DNA of 64,000 bases. It comes from Cliona cf. orientalis (lineage: Eukaryota > Porifera > Demospongiae > Clionaida > Clionaidae). The notes beneath the pieces were generated by a model. It was not told where the DNA came from, searched no databases, and saw only the letters and a list, made by a program, of their open reading frames with translations. Numbering within the stretch: position 1 is the stretch's first letter; every line of letters starts with the position of its first letter. Of the stretch, positions 6,472 to 63,084 are shown piece after piece. A program made the position numbers and the translations under genes. Location of the stretch: positions 682,001 to 746,000 of the forward strand of contig OZ005704.1 of the NCBI GenBank assembly GCA_963930775.1. Reading direction: 5' to 3'.

Positions 6472-6621
6472 TCACTCATCTCCAGTATGCATGGTTGGTA
6501 TAGATCGTCACGCATGCGCATGCATTATTAATTTTTGCGTGGGTGAGGCACACCTGCACCATGTACCAGAGACGTAGCTACTACCGGTATACATTATCTT
6601 TCATCTCCTGGGCACACTAAT

Positions 6622-8533
6622 ATGGCGTGGTGTTTTGCTTCAGCTGAAGAGAGAGCAGCCACGCGCCGAAGCAGAGATATCGATCTATACCTTAAAAGGG
6701 AGGAAAAACGAGCTGCAAGTCAACGGAAAATCCTACTACTGGGACCCGATGAATCGGGAAAGTCCATGTTTTTGAAACAAATGCAATTCCTGTATGGTGG
6801 AGGATGGTCAGAGGAACACCGTCTCCAGCAGAGAACAGTTATATACTCTACCGTCCTAAACGGTATGAAAGAAGTACTCTGGTGTCTGAAACAGTTTCGT
6901 ATTCCACTTGAGAATCCAAAAAATAAGCAAAATTGTTCAGTATTTGAGGATTTGCGCGATAGGAGTGATTGTGGTATCACTACTGATGTTGGCTTCTCCT
7001 CGTATGTGGGACCATTGGTGTCGCTGTGGAGAGATCAAGGCATCCAGGAGGCCACCAAAAGGGCCAGGCTCTATACTCTAGTTAGTGATAATAATTGTCC
7101 TTCCTCAGGCTCTTGAATTAGGCCACAAATTCCAAAAATTATTAATTTTAATGATAACCCTGTATTAACGTCATCACATTCCTCATGTCACATGTACACA
7201 CACACTCATACAGAATGAGTCGTTTCATTATTTTATGAGCCGCATGGACACCGTTGGACAGCTGGTGAGTGCTCTGTTAATCTAGTCATAATTTTGTCAA
7301 GGTCATTATTAATATTAATCATTCATCGTCTCACAGAATGTACATGACATTTTAATATGAAAAACTTGACCACATCCCCAGTAGCTGCGTAGTTCATAGG
7401 GTAAAAGGTCGTCAATATAGTGCGTACACAGTCTAAGCCACATCAATGTCGGCGCCTCAATCGCAGAGATGGAGTCTGAGACCGACTCTCGGCTTCAAGT
7501 TTCGATGCTTCAATCAAAGGAGATAGACTCGACAGCACAGTACAGCTTCCAAACTTCAGATCGGTTGTGGCATGACGCGTGCTATAAATAGCGCAAGGCT
7601 AGCTTTATTTATCAACAGGATTACGTCAGCCAAGAGAACGCATGAAGTTCGGCCAGCATTACTTGTCGGAAAAAGTAGCACTCGGCTTTTAATGTATTCG
7701 CTGGATATGTATGTAAGTTAATGTATGATTCTGTGGATTTTCAGGTCTCAGAAGTGCTCTGTAAAGGCTCTGAATTTTAGCGCTATGACGACATAGGTTA
7801 CATCATAATTACAACATAATTACCTTATAACCGCAAAAAAGTAAATTTATACTGGGGATGTAATTATGTAGCTGAAGTTTATCAACCTATCCCCCTATAG
7901 GGCTATATCCCAACCCTCATAGACATCTTTCATTGTCAAAGTCTCACCATAGGCATCAATGAGCTGCAGCTGGTAGTAGGAAATAATTCTCTGACGTGGA
8001 GATTTATCTCCGTTGGTGATTCAAGAAGCTCACAGAGACGGTGGATGCATATGTTTGAGGGCGTAACTAGTGTTCTGTTCTTTGTCGCTGCAGATGAGTT
8101 TGACCAAACCCTGCCAGAAGATAGTACAACCAATCGTTTGAGAGAAAGCGTCACCCTCTTTGAGGTGATTTCAAACTACCCCTGGTTTAAATCTGTTCCA
8201 AAAATTCTGATTCTGAGTAAGTGTGATTTACTCGCGGAGAAAATCAAAATAAAGAACATCAGGGACTATTTCTCTAATTTTGAGGTACATGTAATTCATT
8301 ACTCGTATCGTGATTTTAATTATTTTATTTGTTTCTAGGGTGATCCCCGTTGTCTTGATGATGTGCAGAAATTTCTAATTGAGATGTTTGATAATGCGAG
8401 ACCTGACGGCAGCTCCATGAATGGGCTTAGTTACTTCATGACTGCTACAGACACTGCCAATGTCAATAGAATGTTCTTTGAGGTGAGGGAAGCAATCATC
8501 GGGGAATATCTAAAGCCTTATTATTTGTTATAA
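6622..8533 (+). CDS. Divergent heterotrimeric G-protein alpha subunit
   Basis: Four phase-0 exons give 362 aa: 6622-7080, 7214-7264, 7901-8284 and 8339-8533. Length and order match G-alpha: N-terminal SAEERAATRRSRDIDLYLKRE, G1 region LLLGPDESGKSMFLKQM, helical domain, YIPT before switch I, switch II region, FEGVTSVLFFVA, YPWFKSVPKILILSKCDLL, and the C-terminal ATDTANV helix. Several key residues are changed: GxGESGKS is PDESGKSM, the switch I Arg is absent (FHCQSLTIGI), DVGGQ is SVGDS, and NKxD is SKCD. There is no Gly2 for myristoylation, but Cys4 could be palmitoylated. It should hydrolyse GTP poorly, or not use nucleotide normally. The reading frame is intact across all exons, so it is more likely a neofunctionalised paralogue than a pseudogene. 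It starts 150 bp after the HAP2 stop, on the same strand. Confidence 0.88.
7400..7715 (+). repeat. Dispersed element, copy a (intron of G-alpha gene)
   Basis: This stretch is clearly similar to the reverse complement of 48535-48912. Shared blocks include GGTAAAAGGTCGTCAATA, CAAGTTTCGATGCTTCAATC, AGCGCAAGGCTAGCTTTATT and ATTCGCTGGATA-like ends, spread over more than 300 bp. No conserved reading frame spans both copies. I see no terminal inverted repeats, so a SINE or a decayed non-autonomous element is possible. Confidence 0.7.
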
Positions 8534-8946: not shown

Positions 8947-11900
8947 TCAGTGGCACTCCACGGCAACAGGCGGAGTCGGTCGTCCACCTGTACCAGCTCC
9001 ACCACCTCCTTCAGAAGTAGCGGTGTTGCCAGCCGACAGAGGTGAGGCGGAGTGTCGAGAGCGCGCCCCTGCACTGCCACAGGACCCTGCCATCGCTGTA
9101 GCTGCAGCTTGAGCCTGACTAGCTGCAAGACGGGCAGCTAGAGAGAGAGAGAGAGAGACTAATAAATTGATTAGCAGTATATTATACTTTGTTCTTTTTG
9201 GGGGGGGGGGGGGGGGGGGGGGTTAGGACAGTTATGCTTCTCCAGTGTTTTATGATGCTGCCAATGGCCGAAACGTTATACTATTATAATATATTCTAGT
9301 CGGTTATCAGTACTCTTCTTACCTTCTCTCTCCTTCTTCCTTGCTTTTCTTCTCTTCCGATCGAGGTTATTCACCTCCGTCTTTAGCTCCACCCATTTCT
9401 TTTGGATGGTCTTCATTTGTTCCTCAATCAAGACCACTTTCTCAGTGCTGCTCATCACTGGCAGTTGAGCTGTGGCAGCATCACAACAAAAAATACTCAT
9501 AATTATCACACCGAAAGTACATGTAGTAAGGATTATCGCAAACATCTGCACACACACACACACCATCGAATTCAACTTACCAAAGTCCACCATAAAGTTC
9601 AACTTTGCTCTCCTGGCCTTCCTTCTCTCCTCGTACTGCTCCTCTGTCTCGTAGCTTCGCCGTCTCCTCTTTCCCGTGTCGGGCGACTGTGACCCCTTAC
9701 TCCTCGAATGATGGTGCTGCTCACTCGCCGCTGGTGGGGACCGTTCCTTCTCGCTCGAGGAATTATCCGACATTGTGGAAGATGACGGGGAGTCTTGACT
9801 TTGTGCACTCGATTCGTCCATGTCGATCCTAGCCTCTTCCGCTTCCCCTCTCTCCTGGATGGTGCTTTCTGTTGGTCGAAGTACGCCGTTCTTACCCACG
9901 AGCAGAGTAGCAGCAGCAGAAGAGGGAGCGGAGCCCGAGAAAGAGCTAGAGAGAGAGGAACTTGAAGAGGAGTGGTGGAGTTTCTTTGAAGAGGAGTTGG
10001 ACGGGTGAATTGGCGAGCAGGGAGGAGAAGGGGACAGCTCGGTGGCCGACTGACTCATGGAGGAGGGGGAGTCAACCGGATGCTGTGGAATCGAGGAGGA
10101 GTAAGACTCGGGGCGAGTAGAAAACGCATCCACATCAATCTTCTTCAAAGGAATACTGGGGCGAGCTCGTGGAGAAGGGCTGTGCCTGGCTGCCGAGACG
10201 TGTCTCACCGGCTGTACAACAGGCTTCAGGTCTCCGCTCATCATTCCTGGGACACGCTCAGAGCAGAACAGAGCGCTGGCTGCGGCGTCAATAGCTTGCT
10301 GCTGCTGTTGCTGTAAGGGAGGTGGTGTTGGTGTACACGTAACGGTAGCTACCACAGGGGGTGGCGGTGGTGGTCCGGACGCCGCCTGCTGCATGACATT
10401 GTGCATTTGTAGCAGGTGAGGAGGAAAGATGTTCATAACTTCAGCAGCTCTACTCATCTGAGCCATCTCGGGCTTTAGCCCACCGTGGTGGATGGACGGC
10501 GGAAAATCTCTCATGGCAGCTGTTGTCACGGGCGGGGTAGCAGTCACGTTCGGCCATCCAGTTGTTCTTTCCTCGCTTCTTTCTCTCTTCACTTTCACAC
10601 TGTTGTTGTGATGTCCCTTCCCCAAACGGTCGTTCTTGCTCATAGTGCCACTACTGACATCGCACACACTGCCGTTAAGACCAGAAGCCACACCCCCTCT
10701 ATTAGTAGCTGGGGTATGCTTGTGGTTCAGCGTCACAGGCTGCTGTGATGTGGTAGTGGTCATCAATCGAACAGGCGGAACTGTAGTGAAAACAGGCATG
10801 GGCGATGATACTGAACAGACACTGTCACCCTCAATTCTCTTCAGGTCAGTCATGTGACCTCCCGAAGGGGGAGGAGTCACGGAGGATATGGGTGTGGTCA
10901 CGGGAGTGACAAAATTCGGTACCATGGTAACAGCCGGTATGTGGTTTGGAGTCGAAGTAGCCGAAGAGTTTGTAGCGAAGTGAGCTTGCGAGCCGACAAC
11001 GGGTCCAGGTGTCATTTGGTGAGGAGGTGTCTCAGTCGCTTGTGATGGTCTCCTTCTCTTGGCCCCTCTTCCACTTCCCTTCCCATTGCTGCCACTACCA
11101 CCACTCTTGCTACCACTAGCATGATGATTCTGCTGACTAGGCAAATGTCCTCCTCCATTGAGCATCTTTCCCACTGTCGACGTGGGGACAGTGACCGGGG
11201 TCAAAGGGCATGACAGGCCAGTGGCAGCGGCCGGATGCTTGTGGTGGTTGGGGGCCATCGATAGCTTCTCGTTGCCACTACTCAGAGGGGTGGGCATGGT
11301 TTCGTTGCCACTTTCCGACATCTTTCTCTTTGAGTAGTGTGGTGGTTGTTGGGGCGTGGCCATCGTACTGCTAGGGGCGGAGCTTGATGAAGGGTAAGGG
11401 ACGTTGGTGCCTGATGGTCCATCGCTGGAGGCTCGGGTCTGCATTGCCTTCTTCTTGTTTGCCTTTTTCTAAAGTAGAATGTGTGCATAATATCAAAAAT
11501 TTTCAAGGCACGTTTTCTGCAGTCCTAGAGCCAGTACTCTCTCTCAAGTATATCTACCGTATAGCCGGAAATATTGGCGGGAATTAAATTTGGCGGTTGA
11601 GCCCAAAATCAGAATATTGGTGAATTTAAATTTGGCGGTTCGGTACGGGATCGCCATACATGCGAGTAGGAAATTTTGGCAGATTTTAATTTGACGGTTG
11701 TAATATAGACAGCCAAACCGCCAAATTTTCCAGCTATACGGTATATTATTAGCGTATAACAGGCAGCCCCTTACCTTTGCATACTGCGGTCTTGTTGCCT
11801 TGCTAGGCCCCGTCACCTTCTCTGCTATCCTGGCCTCGTTGATCCACTCATCGTAACGGGTGTTCCATCCGTTATAGTGCACCAGGTAGTCCCTCCCCAT

Positions 11901-13184
11901 CTCCCCCTCCTCCAGACCGATGATCTTCGCCTCATAGAGACACTGGTTCTTGCCCTTCCCGTAGAACACCTTGATGCGGTCGCCTGACTTGTAGACGCCA
12001 GACGTTAAGATGTCGTCCTCTAGCTTGACATTGGCGTAGCCATCGAAATGAAGCGAGCAGTCATCTCCGTTACTACTACTGTTTTCAGCCTAAGGGAGAT
12101 AGAGTTACAGGTAATTTAGTGAACAATTTGACAGTAAGAACTGCATGGAGGGTAGGCTATATTAGTTTAGCACACAAATTCTCAGGATTCTTATAAAATT
12201 CGGTGTGATGAGCCACAATGCTCAACCATTCACAGTGGGTGAGATCTTTCTATTTAATGCTCACCTGGGAGGAGGAGTCTTGATCAGACACTTCCGACTT
12301 GGCGTCATTCTGCGACATGACCTCTAACCTCTCCACCTCTTCTTCTGGGTCTTCCTCCTTCACGACCACCTTGCTCATCTTTGGAGCCGGTGGCTTTTCG
12401 ACGACCGATGATCTCTCCCTCTCCTCGCTGCTTCTCTCGTCGAGGTTCCTCTTCCTTCTCTGGTTTGTCCAGCTGCCGGGGGACTCCTTCACCGACGACT
12501 GTTTGCCACCCTTGCCACCTTTCTCGTGCATCTCAAAGGCGTACAGGTATCTGAGGAAGGGGGAGGGGGAGGGGAGGGATAAAAACGATAAGATTAAGTA
12601 TACGTTTACTGTCATATTTACTTAAGTAGTTGTACAGATACTTACGCTCGTACATGTATAGGACACAAACAAAACAAAATCTTTACATGCACACATACAT
12701 ATACATAACCACAGCGTAGCGTGTGTACCAGAGCTCAACGTATGTGTACATGTCATGGGATATTATTTTTCTGTTTCACTACGCTTTCACAACAGAACAC
12801 ACCAAGGCTATAATATGATGATCGCTTATCAGCACATGCTAAACACTCATGACTTAGTAACTCACTTTTTATAAGCCTGCTTGATGGCGTATGAAGCGTT
12901 CGTCATACTGGGCATGCCCATCTGTAGGTAGAGCGAGCGCCATTTCAACTCTTGAGTCACCTTCTCCATCCCTCCGTTCTCCTTCACAAGCTTGTAGAGC
13001 TTGAATAGGTTCAGGTCCTTCTGACCCAGCGTCGGTCTTCGGACCATCGGAGTGCCCTTGGACTCGTGGAACTTCTTCAGCTTCTTGTTGAACTCTTCAA
13101 CCTCTGCTGTGACCTCGTCTCCAGTCTCCTCCTCGTCAGTGGGTGTGGCCGAACGATGCTGTGGGTGGTAGTGAGGAAGGAGGG

Positions 13185-28473: not shown

Positions 28474-29604
28474 CTACCCGGTATTTTCAACTACTAATAG
28501 AGTGTTCCAGTGTCCACAACAAACGCCCACTGCTCTCATTTTCAAGTCCAACATCACTTCAGGCCTTCTGACCACATCTTCACTCTGCCCACTACTCCTG
28601 TGTGCTCCCAGCTGTCCGTACTTACTCCAGCCCCACACATACACACTCCCATCTTCACTGACAGCCACTGAATGTCTTTCACCGCAGCCTATTGACGTAA
28701 AATTCACATCATCCTGATCCTCGGGAGGAAGTTCAATCAGAGTAGGTATTGCAACGACAGGGGTATCGTTGGAGTGGCCCAACTGAGCATGCTCATTCCA
28801 GCCCCATGAATATACGTCACCAAACTCGGATAGAGCGAGGTTGTGCCAGTGTCCGCATGCAATGGAGAGGGTCTTTATTCCAGCTAGTGCCTTCACGAGT
28901 GTTGGCTGGGTCTGTGGTAAGATGTCCCCCAAGCCGAGCTGCCCCCGGCTATTAAGGCCAAACGAGAATAGATCACCGTGACTTGATAAGGCCAATACAT
29001 GATCGATTCCACATGCCATCTGTGTAATGGGGACTCCACCAGGTACTGGGAGTGATGGACCAAATTGCAAAAAATTTAATGATGGTATTAACTTTTTATC
29101 ATCGTTTTTGGTAGTTTCAGTGGATATAGTTACTTCGCATAATATTCCATCTTGCATAAGAGCATATATCTTGTCGTTGGATAATATTCCAAACGCTGTA
29201 CACATCTTGTCACTACGAATCTCTGTGAATCTCCAATCGCCGTCACTTCTCCCCGACGCTATAAAGTATATCTTATGTGAAGCAGTCCGTATAATCATTC
29301 CTTTCGTAGTTTCTGCCTCAATCTTTGTCACATGTTCATTTAGCCTGCTCTTAGCAGTCTCTGTCACTTTAAGCCATCTTCCTCCAGTGACCGAGCTAGA
29401 CCCACTGGAGACATGCACTGAGTCCCACGCTATACTGACATGGAAGGATGGACTTGTAGACACCAGCAGTTGTTTTGGTGAAGATGGTGTGATTTCTTTT
29501 ACTGATTTCTCGCCTTTTTCATCCTGTAAGCTCCTATCTAGCTGTCCAAACCCGTTGAAACCGAGCCCCAGAAGAGCATACGCATGATACGCGCACGTAG
29601 CCAT
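28474..29604 (-). CDS. RCCD1: RCCD1, RCC1-repeat protein (intronless)
   Basis: A single open frame of 376 aa. The start is the ATG opening MATCAYHAYALLGLGFNGFGQ, which matches the GFGFCGFGQ start of human RCCD1. RCC1 beta-propeller repeats follow: FSFGLNSRGQLGLGD, DVYSWGWNEHAQLGH, SVYVWGWSKYGQLGAH, and the closing blade CGHWNTLLVVENTG. RCCD1 partners the JmjC protein KDM8 and is linked to H3K36 methylation and chromosome segregation in human cells. No intron is visible, although every other multi-domain gene here is split. It is head-to-head with BCO1 across 153 bp. Two 5' fragments of this gene occur elsewhere in the window. Confidence 0.9.
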   Translation of the reverse strand: MATCAYHAYALLGLGFNGFGQLDRSLQDEKGEKSVKEITPSSPKQLLVSTSPSFHVSIAWDSVHVSSGSSSVTGGRWLKVTETAKSRLNEHVTKIEAETTKGMIIRTASHKIYFIASGRSDGDWRFTEIRSDKMCTAFGILSNDKIYALMQDGILCEVTISTETTKNDDKKLIPSLNFLQFGPSLPVPGGVPITQMACGIDHVLALSSHGDLFSFGLNSRGQLGLGDILPQTQPTLVKALAGIKTLSIACGHWHNLALSEFGDVYSWGWNEHAQLGHSNDTPVVAIPTLIELPPEDQDDVNFTSIGCGERHSVAVSEDGSVYVWGWSKYGQLGAHRSSGQSEDVVRRPEVMLDLKMRAVGVCCGHWNTLLVVENTG

Positions 29605-29757
29605 CAGGGAAAATATGAATGGTAAAGGGTCGATAGACACTCCGGGGAGGGGAATTTAATCTTAGCCGGCCCTTTGAGCGCATGCGCATGCAATAGGCCC
29701 TCTTCTATGCTCCGGCTCTTCAACAACACTTTTTGGATGTAAAGATCGGGCTGAAAG
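29605..29757. promoter_or_regulatory. Shared RCCD1/BCO1 upstream region
   Basis: A 153-bp gap separates the two divergent ATG codons. Parts of it recur upstream of BCO2 ('ggtaaagggtcgatggacactccgg' near 34049) and near 55650, always next to an RCCD1 5' fragment. The duplications therefore carried the promoter together with both gene starts. Confidence 0.6.
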
Positions 29758-41673: not shown

Positions 41674-42866
41674 TTACCCTAACACTATGCCTTTCTCTTT
41701 AGCAGCTTCTCTAAGAACTCTTCTTCCTTCGTCGGTAATGGCGTCGTTGCCACGGAGGCTGTGGGTGGAAGGAGAGGCCGACCGCCATGACACACTAACT
41801 CACCTAGCTAGTCTAGTAAGTAGACAACATTATTGTAGCTAGGTCAACTTACTCCAACCTCTGAAGATTAGCCATTGTCTTGATGGCGTCGGACAGGACC
41901 TTGGCTCCTTCATCGCCGATGGAGTTGTAGCTGAGGCTGTGAGTGGAAGGAGAGAGGAAGACACCGACCGCCATGACACACTAACTCACCTAGCTAGTCT
42001 AGTATGTAGACAACATTATTGTAGCTAGGTCAACTTACTACAACGTCTTAAGATTAGCCATTGTCTTGATGGCGTCGGACAGGACCTTGGCTCCTTCATC
42101 GCCGATGGAGTTGGTGTGGAGGCTGTGAGTGGAAGGAGAGAGGAAGACACCGACCGCCATGACACACTAACTCACCTAGCTAGTCTAGTAAGTAGACAAC
42201 ATTATTGTAGCTAGGTCAACTTACAACAACGTCTCAAGATTAGCCATTGTCTTGATGGCGTCGGACAGGGCCTTGGCTCCTTCATCGCCGATGGAGTTGC
42301 TGTCGAGGCTGTGAGTGGAAGGAGAGAGGAAGACACCGACCGCCATGACACACTAACTCACCTAGCTAGTCTAGTAAGTAGACAACATTATTGTAGCTAG
42401 GTCAACTTACCGCAACGCCTTAAGATTAGCCATTGTCTTGATGGCGTCGGACAGGGCCTTGGCTCCTTCATCGCCGATGGAGTTGCCGTCGAGGCTGTGA
42501 GTGGAAGGAGAGAGGAAGACACCGACCGCCATGACACACTAACTCACCTAGCTAGTCTAGTAAGTAGACAACATTATTGTAGCTAGGTCAACTTACCGCA
42601 ACCACTGAAGATTAGCCATTGTCTTGATGGCGTCGGACAGGGCCTTGGCTCCTTCATCGCCGATGGAGTTGTCACTGAGGCTGTGAGTGGAAGGAGAGAG
42701 GAAGACACCGACCGCCATGACACACTAACTCACCTAGCTAGTCTAGTAAGTAGACAACATTATTGTAGCTAGGTCAACTTACCGCAACCCCTTAAGATTA
42801 GCCATTGTCTTGATGGCGTCGGACAGGACCTTGGCTCCTTCATCGCCGATGGAGTTGTTCTGGAGG
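41674..42866 (-). repeat. LRR exon-cassette array I (6 cassettes plus cap)
   Basis: Six 84-bp exons repeat with an exact 186-bp period: 41936-41853, 42122-42039, 42308-42225, 42494-42411, 42680-42597 and 42866-42783. A cap exon lies at 41758-41674. Each encodes one ribonuclease-inhibitor-type LRR (NSIGDEGAKxLSDAIKTMANL). All cassettes are phase 2-2, so any number keeps frame. The 102-bp introns are almost identical. Exons differ mainly at two codons after the leading Leu (SY, HT, DS, DG, SD, QN) and near the exon end. The cap (RGNDAITDEGRRVLREAAKEKG) reads into TAA, which overlaps a GTAAGT donor-like site. Confidence 0.93.
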
Positions 42867-45800
42867 CTGTGAGTGGAAGGAGAGAGGAAGACACCGACAC
42901 CGACCGCCATGACACACTAACTCACCTAGCTAGTCTAGTAAGTAGATAACATTATTGTAGCTACTCTGTAGCTGTTAATTATAATTAGTAGGTAACTAGC
43001 ATTAAGTCTAGGTGTTTATTAATGTTGGTATTGTTAATAAGAAACAATTTAGAGGAATTGTAATCTTATCACCATGGCAACAGTAGTAAGTAATAGTGAG
43101 TATGATAATACGCAAGGTACAAGTTGTGGTAAAGTTCGATGCCGTCATGGCAACCACATTAATTACCGGATGTTATTAAAGTTAATTAACGCCGCTAGGC
43201 AGCAGCTGCATTTAGCCAAAGGCTAGCTGTTGCCTTTGGCTATGGCGGTTTCAAAAAGAAGCCCGAAGCTGTTGATTTAAAAGGCAGAGCTGGTTTGTAG
43301 GCTACTTTTAAATTTAAAAACGCTTGTTCATCTGCTTGCTTTTAGTCTCGCAGCGTTCACTTCTTTCAGGATGAACGCACGGAAAGAACTAAACGCTGCG
43401 GTGGGAGCAGTCTAGCTTGCGAGAGTAGCTTGCTTTGGAGGGCAGGCTACTTGCTGTCAACGTTTAATTTGTCAGTATGACGCCCTTCCCACGAAGGTTA
43501 CGTATGTACGGTGTCAATAGGCAGTTTTTACAGTAGGCTCTGAAGACGGTAATAAGCTAGCCTAAATTGCGAGTGGTGAATTGCACTAGCCTGTAAACTA
43601 AAGGTGCCCAAGTGGGACATTTGTGGCTATTCAACAGCGTAATTGTCAAACATAATTATTATAGATTCGTGCTCAAAAAATTATTACAACCTGGCAAAAC
43701 AACTAAGCATTAATACACGTACCATTTTCCTTTAAAGTTTAATATCGTTGAGCCTCTCAGTTCAGTACAGTGTTACATCTATCATATCACGACAAAGAAC
43801 TTCAGCTGCACCAACTACTTTAGCTTTTTACTTGCAAAATAAAACACTGCCAGTAAACGTGCAGCTGCCAGAAATTAAACTTCCCACCGCGTACGTAATA
43901 TCAAACTTGATTGGCCAATACCAGCTAGCCCCACCCAACTATGCACATGCACAAGCAATGCCTATATAGCTAGGTAGCTAGCTACTGCCCGGTACTCTCC
44001 GCAATTTTGCGCGTGCGAGGCGCGCATAGAGGAAAGTACGAGTTCGAGTCTAGTTCACCAGACCTTAGACTACGGCTGGACTACTAGCGCCAAATTCATG
44101 TACTCAAGATATTCAAGGTCATGTTTTTTTTATCCTTCCTGAATAAAGCCTTGCACCCCTCATCACCCATGGAACAGACTCCTAGGTACACTTTGAATTG
44201 TCTACAGTGGATGAGAAAGTAGCCCACGGAAAGACAATCTGCTGGACTGAGGCTGATCCCCTGTAGACCTTCCAGCTCCCCTTTGAGTTCCTTGGCTACC
44301 AGCTGACACAAAGTTTCATCTTGAGCTTCAAAGAGACAGTGTAGCAATGAGATGAGAAGCGGTTGGGATTTGTGGCCCAAGCTGGAGCCACCTGAATCCA
44401 GATCAGAGTTGGTACCTGAATGAGGTGTTAATACTGTCGCTTTCTTTTCTTCCATGCGCTTCCGTACAACTCTGATAACGATATCATCCATTCCTTGTGT
44501 TTTAAGTTTAGTTTTGGCAGCATAAAACTGGAACACAGTGCTAAAGCGAGCCCGACCAAAGACTCTGAGTTCCTCACTAAACAAACACCTAGCTACACTT
44601 TTGAGTCGTGAATGTTGTCAAATTTATTTTGCATGTAATATAATAATTGACTAAATACAATAATAATAATTTAATTATTGCTATTGTAAAAAAAATTCAA
44701 GACTATTTAATTGTAAATTAAGCAATTATCACCATGGTAACAGTTGTCGAGCTACTTTTAAGCAAATTAAATTAAATGTGATGCTTGTCTTGTGGTATTA
44801 AACATTATTAAAATTATCACCATGGTCACCAAATAATTTTGTAGACTTGTCCTGAGGGCCTACCTATGGCCGTGCACTAGAGGGCAGCTGTTTTCTGCCC
44901 TAACTCGAGGCATTCCCGCCAGCTATGGCAATTTCAAACAAACAAGAAGCTTGGCCATAGGACCTGTCATGCTATGAACGGTCCCCCCTATGAGTGGTCC
45001 CCCTGGACCGTCCTTGGTCGAAACTAACGGTCCCCCCGGACCGTCCATGACGGAATAGATGGTCCCCCCGGCCGGACCATCAATAGTCGCCATAGTTGGT
45101 CCCCCCTTGCCATAAACGGTCCCCACTATTTTCTGTATGATGGGACCGTTGGTGGCAGAAACATATGGTCCCCTCTATACTATATATAGCTCAGCCTCGG
45201 GATATTAGTGGTGTGTATGGACCGAGTCTATCACTATAGACTAGTAGGTATAATTAATAGCGCTTCAAATTTGACTGTGAAATAGTGATCATTTCTATGG
45301 AAGAACATGACTTTTAATGAAATATTAATCCTGAATGAAATTAGAAGAGGCAGTCTATAGTTACAAAACCAGCCTTGTTTGTAGTCACAGTTAAAAATGA
45401 CATCTGGAATCTGTTGGCAACTCTTGTGAAACCACCGTCCTGCAGCCTTCACAGTACGCCATAGATTCTTCACCATCCTCTGGCATATGGCAGTCACAGT
45501 GGAGTTTAGCCTCGTACTCAGGCCGGGCCTGGGTACGAGGCTAAGTGGAGTTGTACTGTTTTCATAGCTGGTCGCTTACGTCTCACCATTTCGGAAGGAA
45601 AGGGGGACATCTTTCCACTCTCAAGGCATCTCAAAAAGTGTGCAGTGCTCACTTTGATGCATTAACCTTCGAGTGAAAATGGCGGGCTTTCATGCGCATG
45701 CCATTTAGCCTTAGGGGGAATGACGGGCTTTCGTGTGCACGGACCATCCATCGCAAGGGGGGACCGGATATGGCGGAAATTGACAGTCCGGGGGGGGGGG

Positions 45801-48800
45801 GGGGACCACTTAGCGCGGGGGATCAAATATTTCGTGACAGGCCTATTACAAAAACACTGAAACATTACGTAGCTAGAAGCCGCGGTGCCGGTGCTAGTAT
45901 ACAATGCATGCTTGAGGCAGTGTATAGTACAGCAAAGGCATTGAAGCGCACAAGTTTAGGGTCTAATGCCAGCTAGCAATGTGCAGCCGATTTCAACAAG
46001 TCTCCAGCAATGCCAAAATTTATGGAGCCAGCGGTATTTTGGATAGGCCTACGAGTTTAATAGCTTCGAGCTATGCTGGGTTTATATGACACTTGGAAGC
46101 GAACAAAAGTACATGGGGCAGAAACTAGCTCCTCATGCCGGCTAAATAAGACTAGCTGCATAATTATATTATGATTACAAAACAAATCTTGACTATAGCT
46201 ATCCACATTGTCATGATAAATAGCACATCACTGTAGTCAAAACAGGGCATCTTTTGCCTTCTTTCGATTTCTTGCTGTCAGCGCAGGTGTTTGAAATCGT
46301 GCGTGTGCGTACAATTTTACATAATTATTAAGTCCCACCCACCCCGTTTTCACTGGTGCGCAAATTACTTACATGAGATACTTAATCGGAAAGTAGTAAT
46401 CTTTTCCCTCTCTACGTCCGAAAAGAGCCTTGCAGCCTTCATCATCAATATAACAGCCCATCAGGTCTACCATGAAGTCATTGCAGTGAGTTAGGAAATC
46501 CCCAAGGGAGTAACAGTCAATCCGGGATTTGAGCCTGACGTAACTTAGGTCAAGAGATGATTCGAGTTCACCTACAACTAGTTGATACAATTTAGGGTCT
46601 TGTGCCTCAAAGAGACAGTGCATCAAATCAAGCAGAAGACTACCACTTTTGGACCTGGCGACTTTCTTCACGACCTCACCAATCCCAGGATTTATTAGCT
46701 TTGTCTCAGCTGCAAAGAACCGGAACACTGCTGCAAAACGATCCTCATTTCCAAATTTTGTACTGAACTTCTCTGTCTGTTCTTCATCCGTTAATTTAGT
46801 TGCCATGTGGATAGCGGCGAGCAATTCCTGAATTGATAAGTGGAGGAAATTATAAGAGAAAAGTGATTCCGTATTATCAACAAGGCTTTCTACTCCCTCA
46901 AGTAGACCAAGAGTATTGATACCAGGTTCCAATTCAAACATGACTTTATCTTTCACAATACCGTCATAAGCTATCTCACAAAGCCAGTCAAATACATCTT
47001 TATCCTTCCCTGAGAGATCATCCAAACAGTTTATCACCCTAGTATGGTTTGTTTTTTTCCTACAGTGACAAGTAAAGTTATCAGAGGGTTCCATTTTCCA
47101 AAGGTGACGAGTAATACAGTTACAAATAAGTTTTTTGAAGATTTCATACTGGGTATCTGGAAGTTTATATTCACTATTATGCTTATATAAGTACACTAGG
47201 ATACTGGCATTTAGAGGGAGGTAACAGCTGCCTTCAATCATAGGCTTTCTACTAATCGTTTTTATCAGATTATCTGCTCTACTTTCTCTCTTCAAGACGC
47301 TCTTGAAGTATTCTCTAAGATTTTCTTGATCAAATCCCAAAATTACAATTCGTGATGATACAAGTTTCTGGAGAACAATTGAAGATACCGGTCGAGATGT
47401 TATGACAAGGGAACTTCCTGATAGCTCGGCTGCAGATCCCGGTTTGATGAACTCTAGAAACCAATGTTGATGCTGTTTAGGAAGTTCATCCCAGCCATCC
47501 AATACAAAGAGTACTTCTCGTCCATTGTCTTTTTTGATCTTATTCACAGTCGCTTCAGTCCACCATTTCCCTTTTGGTAGTAGATCAGCAATGTCCTTGG
47601 CCTGGCGGACATTTGGATCACGCAATCTTACAAGTATGACAAGCTTAAACTCTTCAAACAGCTTTCCAACTGCCCATTGGTGGCATATATGGAGGGAAAG
47701 GGTACTTTTACCACTTCCAGGAGCTCCCTCAACTAACACTTTGTTAATAGTTTGGTCTTCTACAGTAAAAATATTTTCAAGTTCAATGGAATCCTTTTCT
47801 TTGTATGGCTTATCCACCCTTTCATCAATTTTCCTTTTTCGTTTAATACTATCATCAGGCTGTCCTTGCCGTAATTTATCTTCTGCCCTGATCATTGCTA
47901 ATCTGATAAATTTGTGAATGTCAGCAACATATGAAGGAGGTGGCCATTGAATCAGATCTTCTGCAGCATTGTAGTTGCTTTGATTGTGCGCTTTATAGAA
48001 GTCCTTCAGTTCCTTAGCACAGGCATCTACTGGGTCAACTGGGTCAAGATCAACTGGATTGCTGTCATTACTACTGGAAACCAATTCTATGAAAAGCATA
48101 ACGAAAATATGAGAAAATTATATGTGCTGAGCTCTTAGAGCTGGAATAGTCTTGAAAATTGGGGCCAGAGCCCAATTTTTTGTGGGAAATTATTTCATAG
48201 TGTCAATTGGAATAATATTATATTATCACTTGGAGTACATGATATGTGATAAATATTGGAAATCTAGTAAAATATTCTTCTAATAAAAAAGTATAGTAAT
48301 TGGGTTAACTGGGTTGCCGTCATGTGCTGTAGGAAGCAATGATGGTTTACACTAATTAAGACTTGAGGGGATATTATCTCCCCAGTAGCAATTTACTTTT
48401 CTGTGGTTATGAGGTAATTATAGTGTAATTATGATGAAACCTATAGTGTAATCTATGAGGTAATTATGAGAAAATTCAGGGCCTCGCTGGAGCCTTTCTG
48501 AGACTTGAAAATCAGTAAATATGTAGAGTATCTTACGCGTGTATCCAGCAAATAGATTACAAGCTGAGCGCTACTTTCTCTGAGAAGTACTGTTGGTTGA
48601 ACTTCACGTGTTTTCTTGGCTTACGTAATGCCATGGATAAATAAAGCTAGCCTTGCGCTATATATAGCATGCATCACTGCCACAAGGGGCTGGCCCGCGC
48701 GCGACTGCAGCAGCGTGACCAAACTGAACTTCGGAAGGAATACTGTGTTGTCGAGTTCGTCTCTGTGATTGAAGCATCGAAACTTGTCGCTATCAAGGTT

Positions 48801-51206
48801 GAGAGTCGGTCTTAGACGCCATCTCCATGATTTCTGGGGCCAGCATCGATCGATGTGTACGCATTCTATTGACGACCTTTTACCACATGCACCATTACAC
48901 TGTGCAGCTACTGGGGAGATGGTCAAGGGTTCATTTCAAGATAAATTTAATCGTATTGATAGCAATCTCTATCAGGAAATTTCCTCATCCAGGATCGTGA
49001 CTATATTATATAGGTTGCTAGCGTGCATAAGTATATAGCTAATTTGGGGTGAGCCTGAGCAAGCCCTGAATATATGCACGAAACAGGAAGTGGTTTTAGT
49101 ATATTATATAATATTATCTGTATCATACATTAAAGCCAAAAATTTTCGTGGGAGAAAAATTTCGCTAAGCCTGGCATGGCAAACTTAATATAATAATATA
49201 GAAACATTTTACGGGATTTATTTTCGCCAATATGGTAAAGGTCACCATATTAGTATTAATCATTAATACAGGAGAAAATAATTTATGGATATAATTTTTT
49301 GCCAACAACAACAGGTGGCAAAATTAGCAAAAAATTTCTCCTGGAAAATTTTCAGCTCTATGGTGTATCTATACTTATAATATATCATTTCAGTGAAGAG
49401 AGAGTTATAAATTTAAAAACAACACATAATGGTCCTCATGCAAGCATGCATGTGCAGATCGTATACACACTCACGACTGTGACAAAGGTATGAAAGATGA
49501 GTGTTGAGCTGCTCCAATGCTCTAGCATGTCATGAGGTGCTCAGGACTGGAAATCAATGCTAGAAATTCCCTGGACTAAATTATAGCTAAATGGTCCATA
49601 GTATCTTTACTGATAACACGGATAGGCTACTGATTGAAGGAACCTCACCTTTTCAAGTGTACGACATGCTGATAGTATGGTGGGTCATGTAGAGTATTTT
49701 TAATCATTAATTTCCAGAGATGTTTCCAAAGTTAAAATTTTGGGCATTTACAGAGGCAAATACAATATGTGCAAGAACTTACTTTTGCATGAACAACATT
49801 TGCACTTTGTAATGGCCCCAATGATGGCCGCAATGATGGTTCCAGTGGCTGTAATTATAGCAGCTGCTACAACTACTGTGGATGAAATTATTGCAACTCG
49901 ATCATCTATATTATTAGATGAGATGATAATAGATATATTACTAGCTAGTCATGATCATAATATTATATTATAGCCATTACCTCCTTTAGAGTTGTCATTG
50001 CCTCCTCCTGAGTCGCCACTACCTCCTCCTAATAGAAATTAAAATTTATAGATATGACTATTATTTGCTACTATTTATAGATATGCTACCATTGATGTTG
50101 GATTCTCTGCTAAAGACCATCACAGGAGCTGCCAGTGAGAATGATGAACTCCAGCCACACCCGTCAAGTGTAATGTAGAGGAAGAGTAGTATAATTAACC
50201 CTACAATTGAGGTAGAGGATAATATGATCACATGATTAGATTGTGAAAACATGGACTCTGTATGGTGTAGAGTATATATTACTACACACACTACATTCTG
50301 TGGCACAAGCACTGCAGTTAATTATAGCTAGCTAGCAGTCATCAACGCTCAGTGTTCAATGCTGCATATATGCAAGGTATTAGTAGTCCTGTGTATCTGC
50401 CACGCTAACTGAAAATTTCAGATAAGTAGGAGAATATGAACTTGAGCTAGGATAGTCTTGGTCTGACACTTTCGGACAAATGTCAGAGTAAAATCTATAA
50501 AACATATTAGCTAATGCACCCTTATTCTGCTGGCGATGTACATTAGTCTAAGAGGGTATAAGTGCATTCACTGATCCCGATCTCAGCATAGCAATCTATG
50601 AGGGACAGATGGTTTCTTTTGTGTAGCTATAGCAGGAAGTTGTTGAGGGGTACTCCAGTTTACCACAAATAAATACCTATATGCATGTATGTGGATTCCA
50701 CAGCCTCAAAAATTAAATATTTGAAGATCACCTATCCGCAACAATAAAACTATTTTTGTCATATTAATGCATTAATTAAGCCAATCATGATGTTAATTGA
50801 TGAACTGTGCACGTGGTAATGACTTACATGTAATGATGTTGGTAGGTCCTGGGTTGGTTTCAATGTCTCCAGCACAGAGGAGCAGTAGAGCAAGATACAA
50901 AGCATTGTTGCCCTTAGTTGGCTGCCGTTTCTGCATCATAGAGAAATTAAGGCTGTAGCTATTATACCTGAAAATCTAGCTATATAGCTAGAGTTATTGC
51001 ACCAGCAACAAACTTTAACATACTGGTCTAGTAATGAGGTTGAGTCCCATGAATCCAGGACGCCTTAGGCTGCGGATAACAGATCCTAGCCTCAGACCTT
51101 CAGTGGGCTCTTGTTCAACTGGTTCACTTCCAGGGCATTGAAGCTCAAGAAAGTTTTTGTGCAATGCAAGAAGAAAGCAGAATAGAATAAGGCCTTTTGA
51201 AGCCAT
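41674..51206 (-). CDS. 2A-containing transmembrane NACHT-LRR receptor-like gene (NLR-A)
   Basis: Proposed exons: 51206-51024, 50930-50828, 50200-50090, 50028-49981, 49875-49783, 48086-46370, six LRR exons (42866-42783 and every 186 bp down to 41936-41853), then 41758-41674. All phases agree, giving 947 aa. Domains in order: signal-peptide-like MASKGLILFCFLLAL; 2A motif GDIETNPGP; hydrophobic WLIILLFLYITLDG; short ectodomain with GGGSGDSGGG linker; TM helix AAAIITATGTIIAAIIGAI followed by KCKCCSCK; NACHT with Walker A EGAPGSGKST, Walker B VLFVLDGWDEL and VITSRPVS; seven LRRs. No DEATH or CARD domain is visible. NACHT ATPases oligomerise as immune sensors. The join from the NACHT exon (46370) to the LRR array (42866) across 3.5 kb, and from TM to NACHT, are inferences from phase only. 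Confidence 0.7.
44096..44582 (-). pseudogene. Truncated NACHT-exon 3' fragment
   Basis: This matches the last third of the NLR-B NACHT exon (FGRARFS...; TVLTPHSGTNSDLDSGGSS; LLHCLFEAQDETLCQLVAKEL). It lacks the ATPase part. Near its end a one-base shift in an A-run (AAAAAAAACATG versus AAAAGATATG) moves it out of the frame used by NLR-B, so it could not splice correctly to the LRR cassettes. It marks the broken edge of the segmental duplication and sits in what I propose is an NLR-A intron. Confidence 0.85.
44975..45810. repeat. Degenerate GGTCCCCCC repeats in inverted blocks
   Basis: At 44978-45180 the block GGTCCCCCCGGACCGTCC recurs about seven times at 15-50 bp spacing. At 45739-45810 the same motif appears in reverse orientation, including a G15 run at 45790-45804. 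The arrangement looks like a foldback element with internally repetitive arms and about 550 bp of unique middle. I see no convincing gene in the middle. Confidence 0.6.
45507..45543. mobile_element. 37-bp palindrome with 9-bp target duplication
   Basis: The palindrome runs from TAGCCTCGTACTCAGGCC to GGCCTGGGTACGAGGCTA and is flanked on both sides by AGTGGAGTT (45498-45506 and 45544-45552). Its TAG...CTA ends and duplication length match the MITE at 34645-34918. Confidence 0.75.
48535..48912 (-). repeat. Dispersed element, copy b (intron of NLR-A)
   Basis: This is the reverse-oriented relative of 7400-7715. Shared blocks include GGTAAAAGGTCGTCAATA, CAAGTTTCGATGCTTCAATC and AGCGCAAGGCTAGCTTTATT when read on the minus strand. 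It lies between the proposed TM and NACHT exons. Confidence 0.7.
49206..49260. repeat. Block shared with 63931-63978
   Basis: GGGATTTATTTTCGCCAATATGG continues as TAAAGGTCACCATATTAGTATTAA. It recurs almost unchanged near the right edge, in the same orientation relative to a NACHT exon and at a comparable distance. It is either a homologous intron of the two NLR genes or a dispersed repeat. Confidence 0.65.
49783..49875 (-). other. Transmembrane exon of NLR-A
   Basis: The exon encodes VVAAAIITATGTIIAAIIGA, then ITKCKCCSCK. It has a typical single-pass helix and a juxtamembrane Lys/Cys cluster suited to stop-transfer and palmitoylation. It is phase 1-1. Joined to the NACHT exon its last base completes an AAA codon and the frame continues KLVSSSND. 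The preceding exon (50028-49981) is a Gly/Ser/Asn linker, and the one before it (50200-50090) carries WLIILLFLYITLDGCGWSSS. Confidence 0.7.
50844..50870 (-). other. 2A ribosome-skipping motif
   Basis: The minus strand encodes GDIETNPGP, a full match to the 2A core DxExNPGP, preceded by the usual hydrophobic run (LYLALLLLCA). Skipping would occur between the GGA codon (ending 50847) and the CCT codon (starting 50846). This would release a 90-aa leader peptide and start a second chain with Pro. 2A-like signals are known from sea urchin NLR proteins and from the N-termini of some LINE ORFs. Here the flanking splice sites and signal-peptide exon favour a host gene. Confidence 0.85.
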
Positions 51207-59584: not shown

Positions 59585-60219
59585 TTACAATAACTCTATG
59601 CCTTTCTCTTCAGCAGCTTCTTTAAGAACTTTTCTTCCTTCGTTGGTAATGGTGTAGTTGCCATTGAGGCTGTGGGTGGAAGGAGAGGCCGACCGCCATG
59701 ACACACTAACTCACCTAGCTAGTCTAGTAAGTAGACAACATTATTGTAGCTAGATCAACTTACTACAACGTCTCAAGATTAGCCATTGTCTTGATGGCGT
59801 CGGACAGGGCCTTGGCTCCTTCATCGCCGATGAAGTTTTGCTGGAGGCTGTGAGTGTAAGGAGAGAGGAAGACACTGACCGCCATGACACACTAACTCAC
59901 CTAGCTAGTCTAGTAAGTAGACAACATTATTGTAGCTAGGTCAACTTACTCTAACGTCTTAAGATCAGCCATATTCATGATGGCGTCAGACAGGGCCTTG
60001 GCTCCTTCATCGCCAATGGAGTTGTCAAAGAGGCTGTGAGTGGAAGGAGAGAGGAAGATACCGACCGCCATGACACACTAACTCACCTAGCTAGTCTAGT
60101 AAGTAGACAACATTATTGTAGCTAGGTCAACTTACTACAACATCTTAAGATTAGCCATTGTCTTGATGGCGTCGGATAGGGCCTTGGCTCCTTCATCGCC
60201 GATGGAGTTGTAGTGGAGG
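59585..60219 (-). repeat. LRR exon-cassette array II (3 cassettes plus cap)
   Basis: Exons at 60219-60136, 60033-59950 and 59847-59764 keep the same 186-bp period, phase and intron sequence as array I. A cap exon lies at 59669-59585 (NGNYTITNEGRKVLKEAAEEKG, ending in TAA). Variable codons after the leading Leu again differ between cassettes. Confidence 0.93.
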
Positions 60220-63050
60220 CTGTGAGTGGAAGGAGAGAGGAAGACACCGATCGCCATGACACACTAACTCACCTAGCTAGTCTAGTAAGTAGACAACATT
60301 ATTGTAGCTACTCCCTAGTTGTTAATCATACTAAGTAGGTAACTTGCATTAAGTCTATTAATGTTGTTATTGTTAATTTAAAGGAATTTTAATCTTATCA
60401 CCATGGCAACAATAGTGAGTAATAATGATTGATTAATTGTACCGGGCAAGGTACAAGTTGTGGTAAAATTCAATGTTGTCATGGCAACCACATTAATTAC
60501 TGGATGCTATTAAAGTTAATTAACGCTGCTAGGTAATAGCTGTATTTCGCCAAGGGCATAGCTAGCTATTGCCTTAGGCTATGGCGGTTTCAAAAAGAAG
60601 CCCAAAGCTGTTGGTTCAAGGCAGAGCTGGTTTGTAAGCTACTTTTAATTCAAAAACGCTTGCTTGTCTGTTTGTTTTGGAGAGCAGGCTACTGTTCTTG
60701 CTATCAACGACGCCCTTTCCATGAAGGTGTGGCGGTACGTATGTACGCAGTTAAAAAGCAATTTTTACAATAATATAGGCTCTGGCCTAAGGCTTTTTAA
60801 AACTGAGAGTGGTGAATTGCACCAGCCTGTGAACTGAAGGTACCCAAGTAAGAGTACATCCCATATATTTTTTTACATTTTGTGGCTATTAAACAATTAG
60901 CAGGATAATGCATACACGGCTAAAAGAATGGGGGGTTCGTGCTCAAAATTATATAATTTACAACTTGGCAAAATAACTAAGCTTACACGTACCATTTTCC
61001 TTTAATAAAATTTAATGTGTCCACGAATAGTGCGATATCGTCGAGCCTCTCAGTATAGTGTCACGTCTATCATGTCACGACACAGAACTTTAACTATTTT
61101 CACTTTTTACTTGCAAAATAAACACTGCCAGTAAACATGCAGCTGCCAGAAATTAAACATCCCACCGCGTACATAATATCAAACTTGATTGGCCAATACC
61201 AGCTAGCCCCACCCAACTATGCACATGTGCATATGCACGAGCAATGCCCAGAGCTAGCTAGCGAGCTACACCCTCCACAATTTTGCGCGTGCACAGCGCG
61301 CGCATAGAGGAAAGTACGAGTTCGAGTTTAGTTCACCAGACCTTAGACTATGGCCAGACTACTAGCGCCAAATTCACGTACTAAAGATATTCAAGGTCAT
61401 ATCTTTTATCCTTCCTGAATAAAGCCTTGCACCCATCATCACTCATGGAACAGCTTCCTAGGTACACTTTGAATTGTCTACAATGGGTGAGAAAGTAGCC
61501 CACAGAAATACAATCTGCTGGACTGAGGCTGATCTCCTGTAGACCTCCCAGCTCTCCTTTGAGTTCCTTGGCTACCAGCTGACACAGAGTCTCATCTTGA
61601 GCTTCAAAGAGACAGTGTAGCAATGAGAGAAGAAGCGGTTGGGATTTGTGGCCCAAGCTGGAGCCACCTGAATCCAGATCAGAGTTGGTACCAGAATGAG
61701 GTGTTAATACTGTCGCTTTCTTTTCTTCCATGCACTTCCGTACAACTTGGACAACGATTTCATCAATTCCTTGTGTTTTAAGTTTAGTTTTGGCAGCATA
61801 AAACTGGAACACAGCACTAAAGCGAGCCCGACCAAAGAGTTCCTTGAACTGTGCCACCTGCTCACTTGGATCCATCTTGGTAGCCATATGAATGGCTGCC
61901 AACAGTTCCTGTATGGAAAGATGGAGGAAGTTGTAGGAGTGTGACGTTCCATCACTAGCAAAGCTTTCTACTCCCTGAAGTAAACCAAGAGTGTTGAAAC
62001 TACGTTTAAGGTTTTCAAAGGTTATGTGGTCTTCTATCACTCCCTTGTATGCGATCTCGCAAATGCATTCAAACTGATTTCGAATAGCAGTTGGGAGCTC
62101 ATCCAGTGACTCTATTCTAGGTATACAAAGTTGCTCCTCCTTCTTTTTCAGATGCCGAAGTATGCAGTTACGGATAAGTGCAGAGAAAATGCCAAATTGA
62201 GTATGTGGAAGTTCACCATCACACTTGAAAATGTGGACCAGGATGCTGGCATTCAAAGGCAAGTAGCAGCTGCCTTCTACAACTGGGTTTTCTTTGATTC
62301 TTTGCTGCAGTTCCTTAACCTTGCCATGATCGTCTCCCAAGCATCCAGTAAAATAATTCTGCAGTTCAGCTTTTGTGAACCCCAAGATTTCAATTCGAAA
62401 TTTAACAAGCTCATGAAGTTTCGTTGACGAGATGGGGCGAGATGTGATGACCACAGAGCTTTTGTGTAGTTTATTGAGTTGTAATATGTCTCTGATGATG
62501 GAATGGCGTTGTGATTTCTCTGGTAGCTCATCCCAGCCATCAAAAATGAAGAGAACACCTTCTCCATCACGAGCAGTTATTTCCTTCTCTGCATTTTGTC
62601 CCATTGTGCTGTCTCGTTTTGGTAATAAGTCAGCTATGCTCTTGGCATTTTGAACTATTTCTTCACGCAATTTCACCAGTATGACTTGACTGTATTCTTT
62701 CAATAATCGACCAGCTACCCACTCATGGCAAATGTGCAGAGAGAGGGTACTCTTTCCACATCCTGGGGCTCCTTCAATCAATATTTTCTTTTGTTCAGGT
62801 TTTTCAAAGATTTTTTTAAGTGTGACGGGAACCTTTCTTCGTAAAATATCATCTATCTTGCCTGTAATAGTCTCACGTGTGAAATGATCATCAATATTTC
62901 TTCGCTGCACTTGTTCTGGCATGATCATTGCCAAACTAAATACTTTTTCAGTTACCGGAGGAGGCCAGTCGTCATCGCCACTAAAGCTAGCTTGAGTCTT
63001 GGCTTTGTAGAGTGATTTCAAGTGCCCAGTAAACTCTTCTAACTTGTTAT
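59585..63050 (-). CDS. NACHT-LRR gene NLR-B (5' end outside window)
   Basis: A NACHT exon of 1669 bp (63050-61382) is followed by three LRR exons (60219-60136, 60033-59950, 59847-59764) and a cap exon (59669-59585), all in compatible phases. The NACHT part starts DNKLEEFTGHLKSLYKA with no death-fold domain. It has Walker A EGAPGCGKST, Walker B VLFIFDGWDEL, sensor-like VITSRPIS and the helical region SYNFLHLSIQELLAAIHMATK. The exon has an acceptor TTTGCAG and enters in phase 1, as in NLR-A, so upstream leader and TM exons are expected beyond 64000. It is a paralogue of NLR-A and the intact source of the fragment at 44096-44582. The frame is open throughout. Confidence 0.88.
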
Positions 63051-63084
63051 CTGCAAACAGGGTATTAAACATAAATTTCATCAT

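Follow-up and report, generated by a model that had tools for sequence, protein, structure and literature searches.

A predicted membrane-anchored NACHT-LRR receptor gene in the sponge Cliona cf. orientalis with a 2A motif between two signal-like segments

In sea urchin NOD-like receptors (NLRs) of the SpNLR2A type, the 2A sequence itself acts as the signal within a 26-amino-acid N terminus, and ribosome skipping sends the NLR to the cytosol (PMC4981915). Such 2A or StopGo sequences are rare in cellular genes according to PMC12846837, in the main text of which NACHT, NLR, and sponge do not occur. Classical NLRs are cytosolic proteins that lack a membrane anchor, but NLRs associated with membranes are also described. 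Dysidea avara NLRs carry transmembrane (TM) domains, a feature first reported in A. queenslandica (PMC12909245), and a D. avara NLR with a predicted TM domain rises upon microbial challenge (PMC6208332). The receptor classes of H. panicea include membrane NLRs (PMC8242945), and anthozoan NLRs have 3 to 5 N-terminal TM domains, whose link to the sponge forms is doubted (PMC5094078). In artificial polyproteins, a signal placed before and another after the 2A yields two exported products, as with IL-12 (PMC2978324, PMC11512398), and furin sites (R-X-R/K-R) have also been used before the 2A (PMC2978324). Here, we describe gene A, a predicted NACHT-leucine-rich repeat (LRR) receptor gene on the minus strand (51206-41674) of a 64,000-nucleotide stretch of Cliona cf. 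orientalis contig OZ005704.1 (the window; G000:C16:682001-746000), part of a 216.8-Mb, 149-contig assembly with at least 104 Pfam NACHT matches.

The 2A motif of gene A, GDIETNPGP, lies in exon 2 (50828..50930), agrees with the 2A/StopGo consensus D(V/I)ExNPGP, and has its skip site (NPG/P, residues 89/90) between two hydrophobic, signal-like segments. Exon 1 (51024..51206) supplies the ATG, the first of these segments, and a conserved stretch, SVIRSLRRPGFMGLNLITRP; it ends in phase 0, and its junction with exon 2, which reads KRQPTKGNNALYLALLLLCAGDIETNPGP, creates a furin-like RPKR. Directly behind the skip site follows TNIITWLIILLFLYITLDGCGWSSSFSLAAPV (hydropathy 2.05), which resembles a signal sequence and whose h-region, WLIILLFLYITL (residues 96-107), is encoded in exon 3 (50090..50200). 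Exon 4 (49981..50028) encodes a Gly/Ser-rich linker, a short putative ectodomain, and exon 5 (49783..49905) a TM segment (2.52) followed by KCKCCSCK. The signal-like and TM segments were called by hydropathy alone, using a Kyte-Doolittle scan with a 19-residue window and a threshold of 1.3, which places three hydrophobic stretches within residues 1-230, two of them after the 2A and one TM-like. The flanking of the 2A by two signal-like segments was absent from the first-pass annotation of this DNA, as was a NACHT-exon remnant at 44562-44096.

Gene A comprises 13 exons with GT/AG boundaries in one joined frame of 956 codons that has no internal stop and closes with a TAA at 41676-41674. The signal, 2A, hydrophobic, Gly/Ser, TM, NACHT, and LRR exons that the first-pass annotation had placed on one strand are indeed all present, in that order. 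The NACHT exon (exon 6, 46373..48086) contains a Walker A motif, GAPGSGKST, and DGWDE; seven LRR exons follow (42866-42783, 42680-42597, 42494-42411, 42308-42225, 42122-42039, 41936-41853, and 41758-41674), six of 84 bp and a last one of 85 bp that includes the stop. Pfam detects the two hallmarks of a bona fide NLR, the NACHT domain (PF05729, E 1.2e-20; 74.4 bits, cut-off 26.7) and, on the assumption that splicing joins exon 6 to the LRR exons, C-terminal LRRs (LRR_6, PF13516, E 7.5e-35). Neither a Death nor a CARD domain was found in gene A by Pfam at E up to 0.1, and the gene does not classify as NLRC or NLRD. A profile built from four such NACHT exons matched 36 different PDB sequences with E no higher than 0.001, with NLRP3 chains best (E 9.4e-23) and NLRC4 at 2e-8. 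The exon phases are compatible, as had been proposed: junction 1-2 is in phase 0 and junctions 2-3, 3-4, 4-5, and 5-6 in phase 1, the NACHT exon is 1-2, and the LRR exons are 2-2. The 1-1 phase also proposed for the leader exons does not hold throughout, because the homology of exon 1 to two paralogues (L009 and L011) extends as far as 51024, up to the GT donor at 51023. We regard this anatomy as real and the receptor as best read as one gene, for which we infer splicing, 2A skipping, and membrane topology from the sequence.

Three copies of the leader were found: gene A, its tandem paralogue B, which starts 15 kb away, and a copy at C1:5393877. The consensus D(V/I)ExNPGP is kept in all three, as is RPKR, two of the copies being near-identical; exon 2 is identical in B and 71% identical in the C1 copy. 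Between gene A and the C1 copy, the leader exons align and the introns do not. Exon 1 differs with dN (nonsynonymous divergence) 0.131 and dS (synonymous divergence) 0.456 (dN/dS about 0.29), and the 2A plus exon 3 with dN 0.192 and dS 0.809 (dN/dS about 0.24). The last 21 codons of exon 1, a stretch picked after the alignment was viewed, show six synonymous differences and one nonsynonymous difference. No relative of exons 1 to 3 was found in viral contigs. An origin of the 2A exon as a retroelement scrap was rejected, given its conserved splice sites and two paralogues without the repeated frame of the C1 sites described below. Two C14 loci resemble the TM exon (41% and 38%; E 0.4-0.5), but a kinship was likewise rejected, L063, the one that was read, being a polytopic membrane protein without NACHT. 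An in-frame ATG ATG at 50931-50939 abuts exon 2, reading through the acceptor, and is a possible alternative start that would give a sea-urchin-like N-terminal 2A.

Paralogue B repeats the order of leader, TM, NACHT, and LRR exons. Its leader and TM exons lie outside the window at C16:746.7-748.6 kb (L009, L052; 66565-64686 in window-like coordinates), its NACHT exon at 61382..63050 and its four LRR exons, with a stop after the last, at 59589..60219, both on the minus strand. The leader blocks of A and B are 88-97% identical, their leader introns 79-98% (measured for introns 1, 3, and 4 and for the first 500 bases of intron 5), and the LRR-side blocks 81% and more; exon 5 is in frame but altered in B, and closes with a phase-1 GT donor in both genes. 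As protein, the NACHT exons share 49% identity. Since these differ while the leader and LRR blocks match, two different NACHT exons sit in one leader-LRR frame. The main homology of B to two C5/C14-type 2A-NLR genes opens at 63053 and 63051, the start of the NACHT exon, and the sequences are most simply read as a leader-TM cassette that became attached to a C5-type NLR. In the C1 copy, where the junctions past exon 2 are in phase 1, the leader and second signal lead into a TM exon other than that of gene A and then into the first of the Ig-like exons, each of these two being read as phase 1-1. Six Ig-like open reading frames (ORFs) stand behind that TM exon; two of the three scanned pass the Pfam Ig cut-off and one does not. 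Behind them lies a 490-amino-acid ORF (L066:77-1549) with weak TPR matches only. From order and strand, the Ig-like ORFs and the 490-amino-acid ORF are presumably part of the C1 leader gene.

The order seen in A and B recurs across the genome beyond what chance would give. A 2A codon pattern occurs 152 times and its reverse never; 147 of the 152 sites were located and used, together with at least 200 merged NACHT loci. Ninety-seven LRR-core matches fall into 27 arrays of the gene A type. A same-strand 2A precedes 26 of these, A and B included, at a distance of 4-12 kb, and none of the 27 has an opposite-strand 2A in the 15 kb before it. Among the NACHT matches listed, 25 of the 27 arrays, again with A and B, show 2A, NACHT, and LRR in this order on one strand; of the two exceptions, one has no listed 2A and the other no listed NACHT. 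Viewed from the 2A sites and among the matches listed, 36 or more of 147 sites have a same-strand NACHT no further than 10 kb downstream, none has one on the opposite strand, and one has a same-strand NACHT upstream. A clustered 2A-NACHT-LRR family is found on G000 C5, C1, C13, and C14, and the leaders read there end like LLLISGDVEENPGPVGG.

Thirteen other 2A-NACHT loci were read, namely 11 of 12 2A-NACHT pairs (the pair at C6:9294534, 11.3 kb apart, was left out) and the two C5/C14-type genes. Each has a 2A exon and then NACHT, some with an intervening exon that is Death-like by eye. A hydropathy screen from the 2A to Walker A recovered exons 3 and 5 of A and exon 5 of B as controls and missed exon 3 of B; it found a phase-1-compatible stretch at 1 of the 13 loci (C4:11258548, hydropathy 2.08), which we judge spurious. 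Because a hydrophobic stretch after the 2A appears at only this one locus, and weakly, most of the 2A-NLRs read resemble the sea urchin type. The pairing step dropped 16 C1 sites as repetitive, which the order counts over 147 sites include; 13 of the 15 dropped sites that were read share a repeated frame, and 18427111 and 32630860 do not. C1:18.0-34.1 Mb holds 13 2A sites, mostly GDIEVNPGP, in one repeated, mobile-element-like frame. Dense 2A clusters with DVELNPGP occur at C13:231857-349042 and C18:5667613-7508269, with no NACHT within 10 kb among the matches listed; these may be another 2A-led gene family.

With somewhat more confidence than doubt, we propose that gene A encodes a two-product immune receptor in which 2A skipping would separate two polypeptides, each with its own signal, one of them a membrane-anchored, cytosolic NACHT-LRR protein. 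The ribosome would skip at NPG/P. Product 1, of 89 residues, would enter the endoplasmic reticulum (ER) by the exon 1 signal, its conserved basic stretch ending in the furin-like RPKR ahead of the 2A tail. Product 2, of 867 residues, would start as Pro-TNIIT-WLIILLFLYITL, serving as its own signal sequence, and would continue with about 30 luminal Gly/Ser-rich residues, one TM segment, and a cytosolic NACHT-LRR part, the concave face of the LRRs providing a variable recognition surface. The Cys/Lys-rich juxtamembrane patch is a candidate for palmitoylation, and the positive-inside rule agrees with a Lys/Cys patch after the TM segment. The membrane-anchored NACHT-LRR protein with internal ATPase and small ectodomain proposed in the first-pass annotation fits this predicted anatomy; its signal needs revision, because the exon 1 signal would be absent from the receptor if the 2A skips and exon 3 would be the receptor's own. 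The leader may be a phase-1 module moved by exon shuffling, joined to two different NACHT exons here and to an Ig-like body with another TM exon elsewhere. The parts and their order are of the same kinds as in engineered polyproteins (PMC2978324), with the difference that those are artificial and this one is genome-encoded. A more far-reaching version, which we put forward tentatively and regard as doubtful, is a natural bicistronic immune gene that would deliver from one mRNA, at a ratio fixed by the 2A, the membrane NLR together with a secreted peptide released by furin, the peptide serving this NLR as ligand, decoy, or partner. In this version, the cassette would be a portable membrane anchor for NACHT and Ig-like bodies. 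With a signal on each product, skipping might also set the topology of the NACHT domain: cytosolic if skipped, possibly the opposite if not.

Several points weigh against the two-product proposal. Some translocated sequences upstream of a 2A inhibit skipping, the inhibitory sequence lying 28-48 residues upstream of the peptidyl-transferase centre, in the translocon (PMC2978324). The conserved stretch of exon 1 lies in roughly this zone, so it may serve the 2A reaction as an insulator rather than encode a peptide. PTNIIT, the n-region of the second signal, lacks a positive charge, and the leader copies total three, two of them near-identical. Upstream of the NACHT exon, B and L078 have a further 297-bp stretch in common (63914-63655, 70%), which makes the start of the NACHT exon no more than a candidate for the shuffling breakpoint. 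Gene A, with its NACHT remnant, may also be a recent chimaera. That remnant (44096..44562, minus strand) is a B/C5-type 3' end inside the NACHT-LRR intron, 92.7% identical to L078.

Of the other explanations, dual targeting as published for the 2A leaders of S. purpuratus NLRs (PMC4981915) would give a cytosolic NLR upon skipping and an exported one otherwise, with exon 3 unused as a signal. The usual 2A-NLR among the 13 other loci does look urchin-like, but exon 3 and a TM exon come after the 2A in A and B, product 2 would retain both hydrophobic segments with or without skipping, and we consider this account unlikely. It is quite improbable that the 2A is inactive and gene A yields a single polytopic protein, in which exons 3 and 5 would span the membrane and leave NACHT-LRR luminal, or exon 3 would be cleaved. 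Signal sequences upstream can inhibit 2A in cells (PMC2978324), but D(V/I)ExNPGP is intact in all three leader copies. A luminal NACHT ATPase would be without precedent to our knowledge, which weighs against this explanation.

The leader and TM exons (51206-49783) could instead make up an independent small gene for a membrane protein that ends before 48086, since a 1.7-kb intron parts exons 5 and 6 and read-through would stop after about a dozen codons. This is very unlikely because B repeats the order from leader to LRR, with the shared donor of exon 5, and because the 25 arrays noted above show 2A-NACHT-LRR; the earlier view that these exons belong to the receptor gene is thus favoured. That gene A is an unexpressed chimaera from unequal recombination would fit the segment 49257-44562, which matches B in two short NACHT patches only (69% and 73%), and the NACHT remnant downstream. 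Its 956 open codons, intact NACHT motifs, and diversified concave LRR residues argue the other way and leave this, too, with a low probability.

Variation among the LRR exons falls mainly on the concave face. Gene A has six 84-bp exons in 186-bp exon-plus-intron units and a terminal exon, and B has three and one; because each exon is 2-2 in phase, loss or gain of an 84-bp exon stays in frame. At 41678-42866, 59589-60219, and L077-L081, introns and framework are near-identical and the concave-face codons hypervariable. Across 41 units from 7 of the 27 arrays (one 75-bp exon of 42 dropped, terminal exons excluded), per-site diversity amounts to 0.453 for the 15 concave LxxLxLxx nucleotides and 0.031 for other coding sites. 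By array, it ranges over 0.322-0.502 at concave sites, 0.006-0.087 at other coding sites, and 0.004-0.037 in introns; gene A alone gives 0.462, 0.009, and 0.004. Within the hypervariable codons, there is little variation at third positions apart from codon 2 and, in part, codon 3; codon 13 (Ala/Val), which is not in the concave set, varies as well. In this one genome, the repeats thus combine high identity with diversity concentrated at contact residues, the pattern of concerted, contact-diversified NLR repeats. Homogenised repeats with diversified contact residues are likewise reported for the LRR exons of brown algae, whose ROCO genes have one LRR per exon and concave-face selection (PMC11378527), and for fungal NLR repeats (PMC4986451). 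The fungal repeats are WD, ANK, or TPR and the algal genes ROCO, whereas the family described here is an animal NACHT-LRR family with a 2A leader.

Elsewhere in the window, the ORFs 314-1435, 6547-7116, 9276-12089, and 28474-29655 resemble, by eye, SPRTN, a G-protein alpha subunit, a chromo-barrel protein, and an RCC1-repeat protein, respectively.

Gene A shares with SpNLR2A a 2A consensus in the N-terminal part of a NACHT-LRR protein and a link to ER targeting (PMC4981915). Unlike there, a signal exon precedes the skip site at 89/90, and after it come a second signal-like segment and a TM segment; the NPG at residues 87-89, behind exon 1, puts gene A outside the SpNLR2A leader type, which a start at the alternative ATG before exon 2 would nearly restore. 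With the sponge and anthozoan membrane NLRs it has in common TM segments in NACHT-LRR proteins, N-terminal in the anthozoans. The anthozoan forms have 3 to 5 TM domains; in gene A, the hydropathy scan shows three hydrophobic stretches, of which one is TM-like. The account of the anthozoan proteins in PMC5094078, as far as it was consulted, mentions no 2A. Membrane NLRs are already in print (PMC12909245, PMC5094078) and are not an undescribed class; the first-pass annotation had known no described class with this layout. Literature searches, which did not cover Yuen 2014 or a 2025 survey of 2A sequences, found no paper combining a 2A, a second signal, and a TM segment; the '2A-like' matches in PMC5890393 concern an unrelated protein name. 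An N-terminal 2A in the sea urchin and membrane NLRs in sponges and anthozoans are thus each published, and their combination was not found in these searches. If the proposal for gene A holds, an animal would co-express two exported products from one immune gene via a 2A, as bioengineers do, and would possess a membrane NLR whose second signal is positioned to remain after skipping. Concerted turnover of exons would be the way in which the recognition surface of this NLR family evolves, as in brown algae and fungi.

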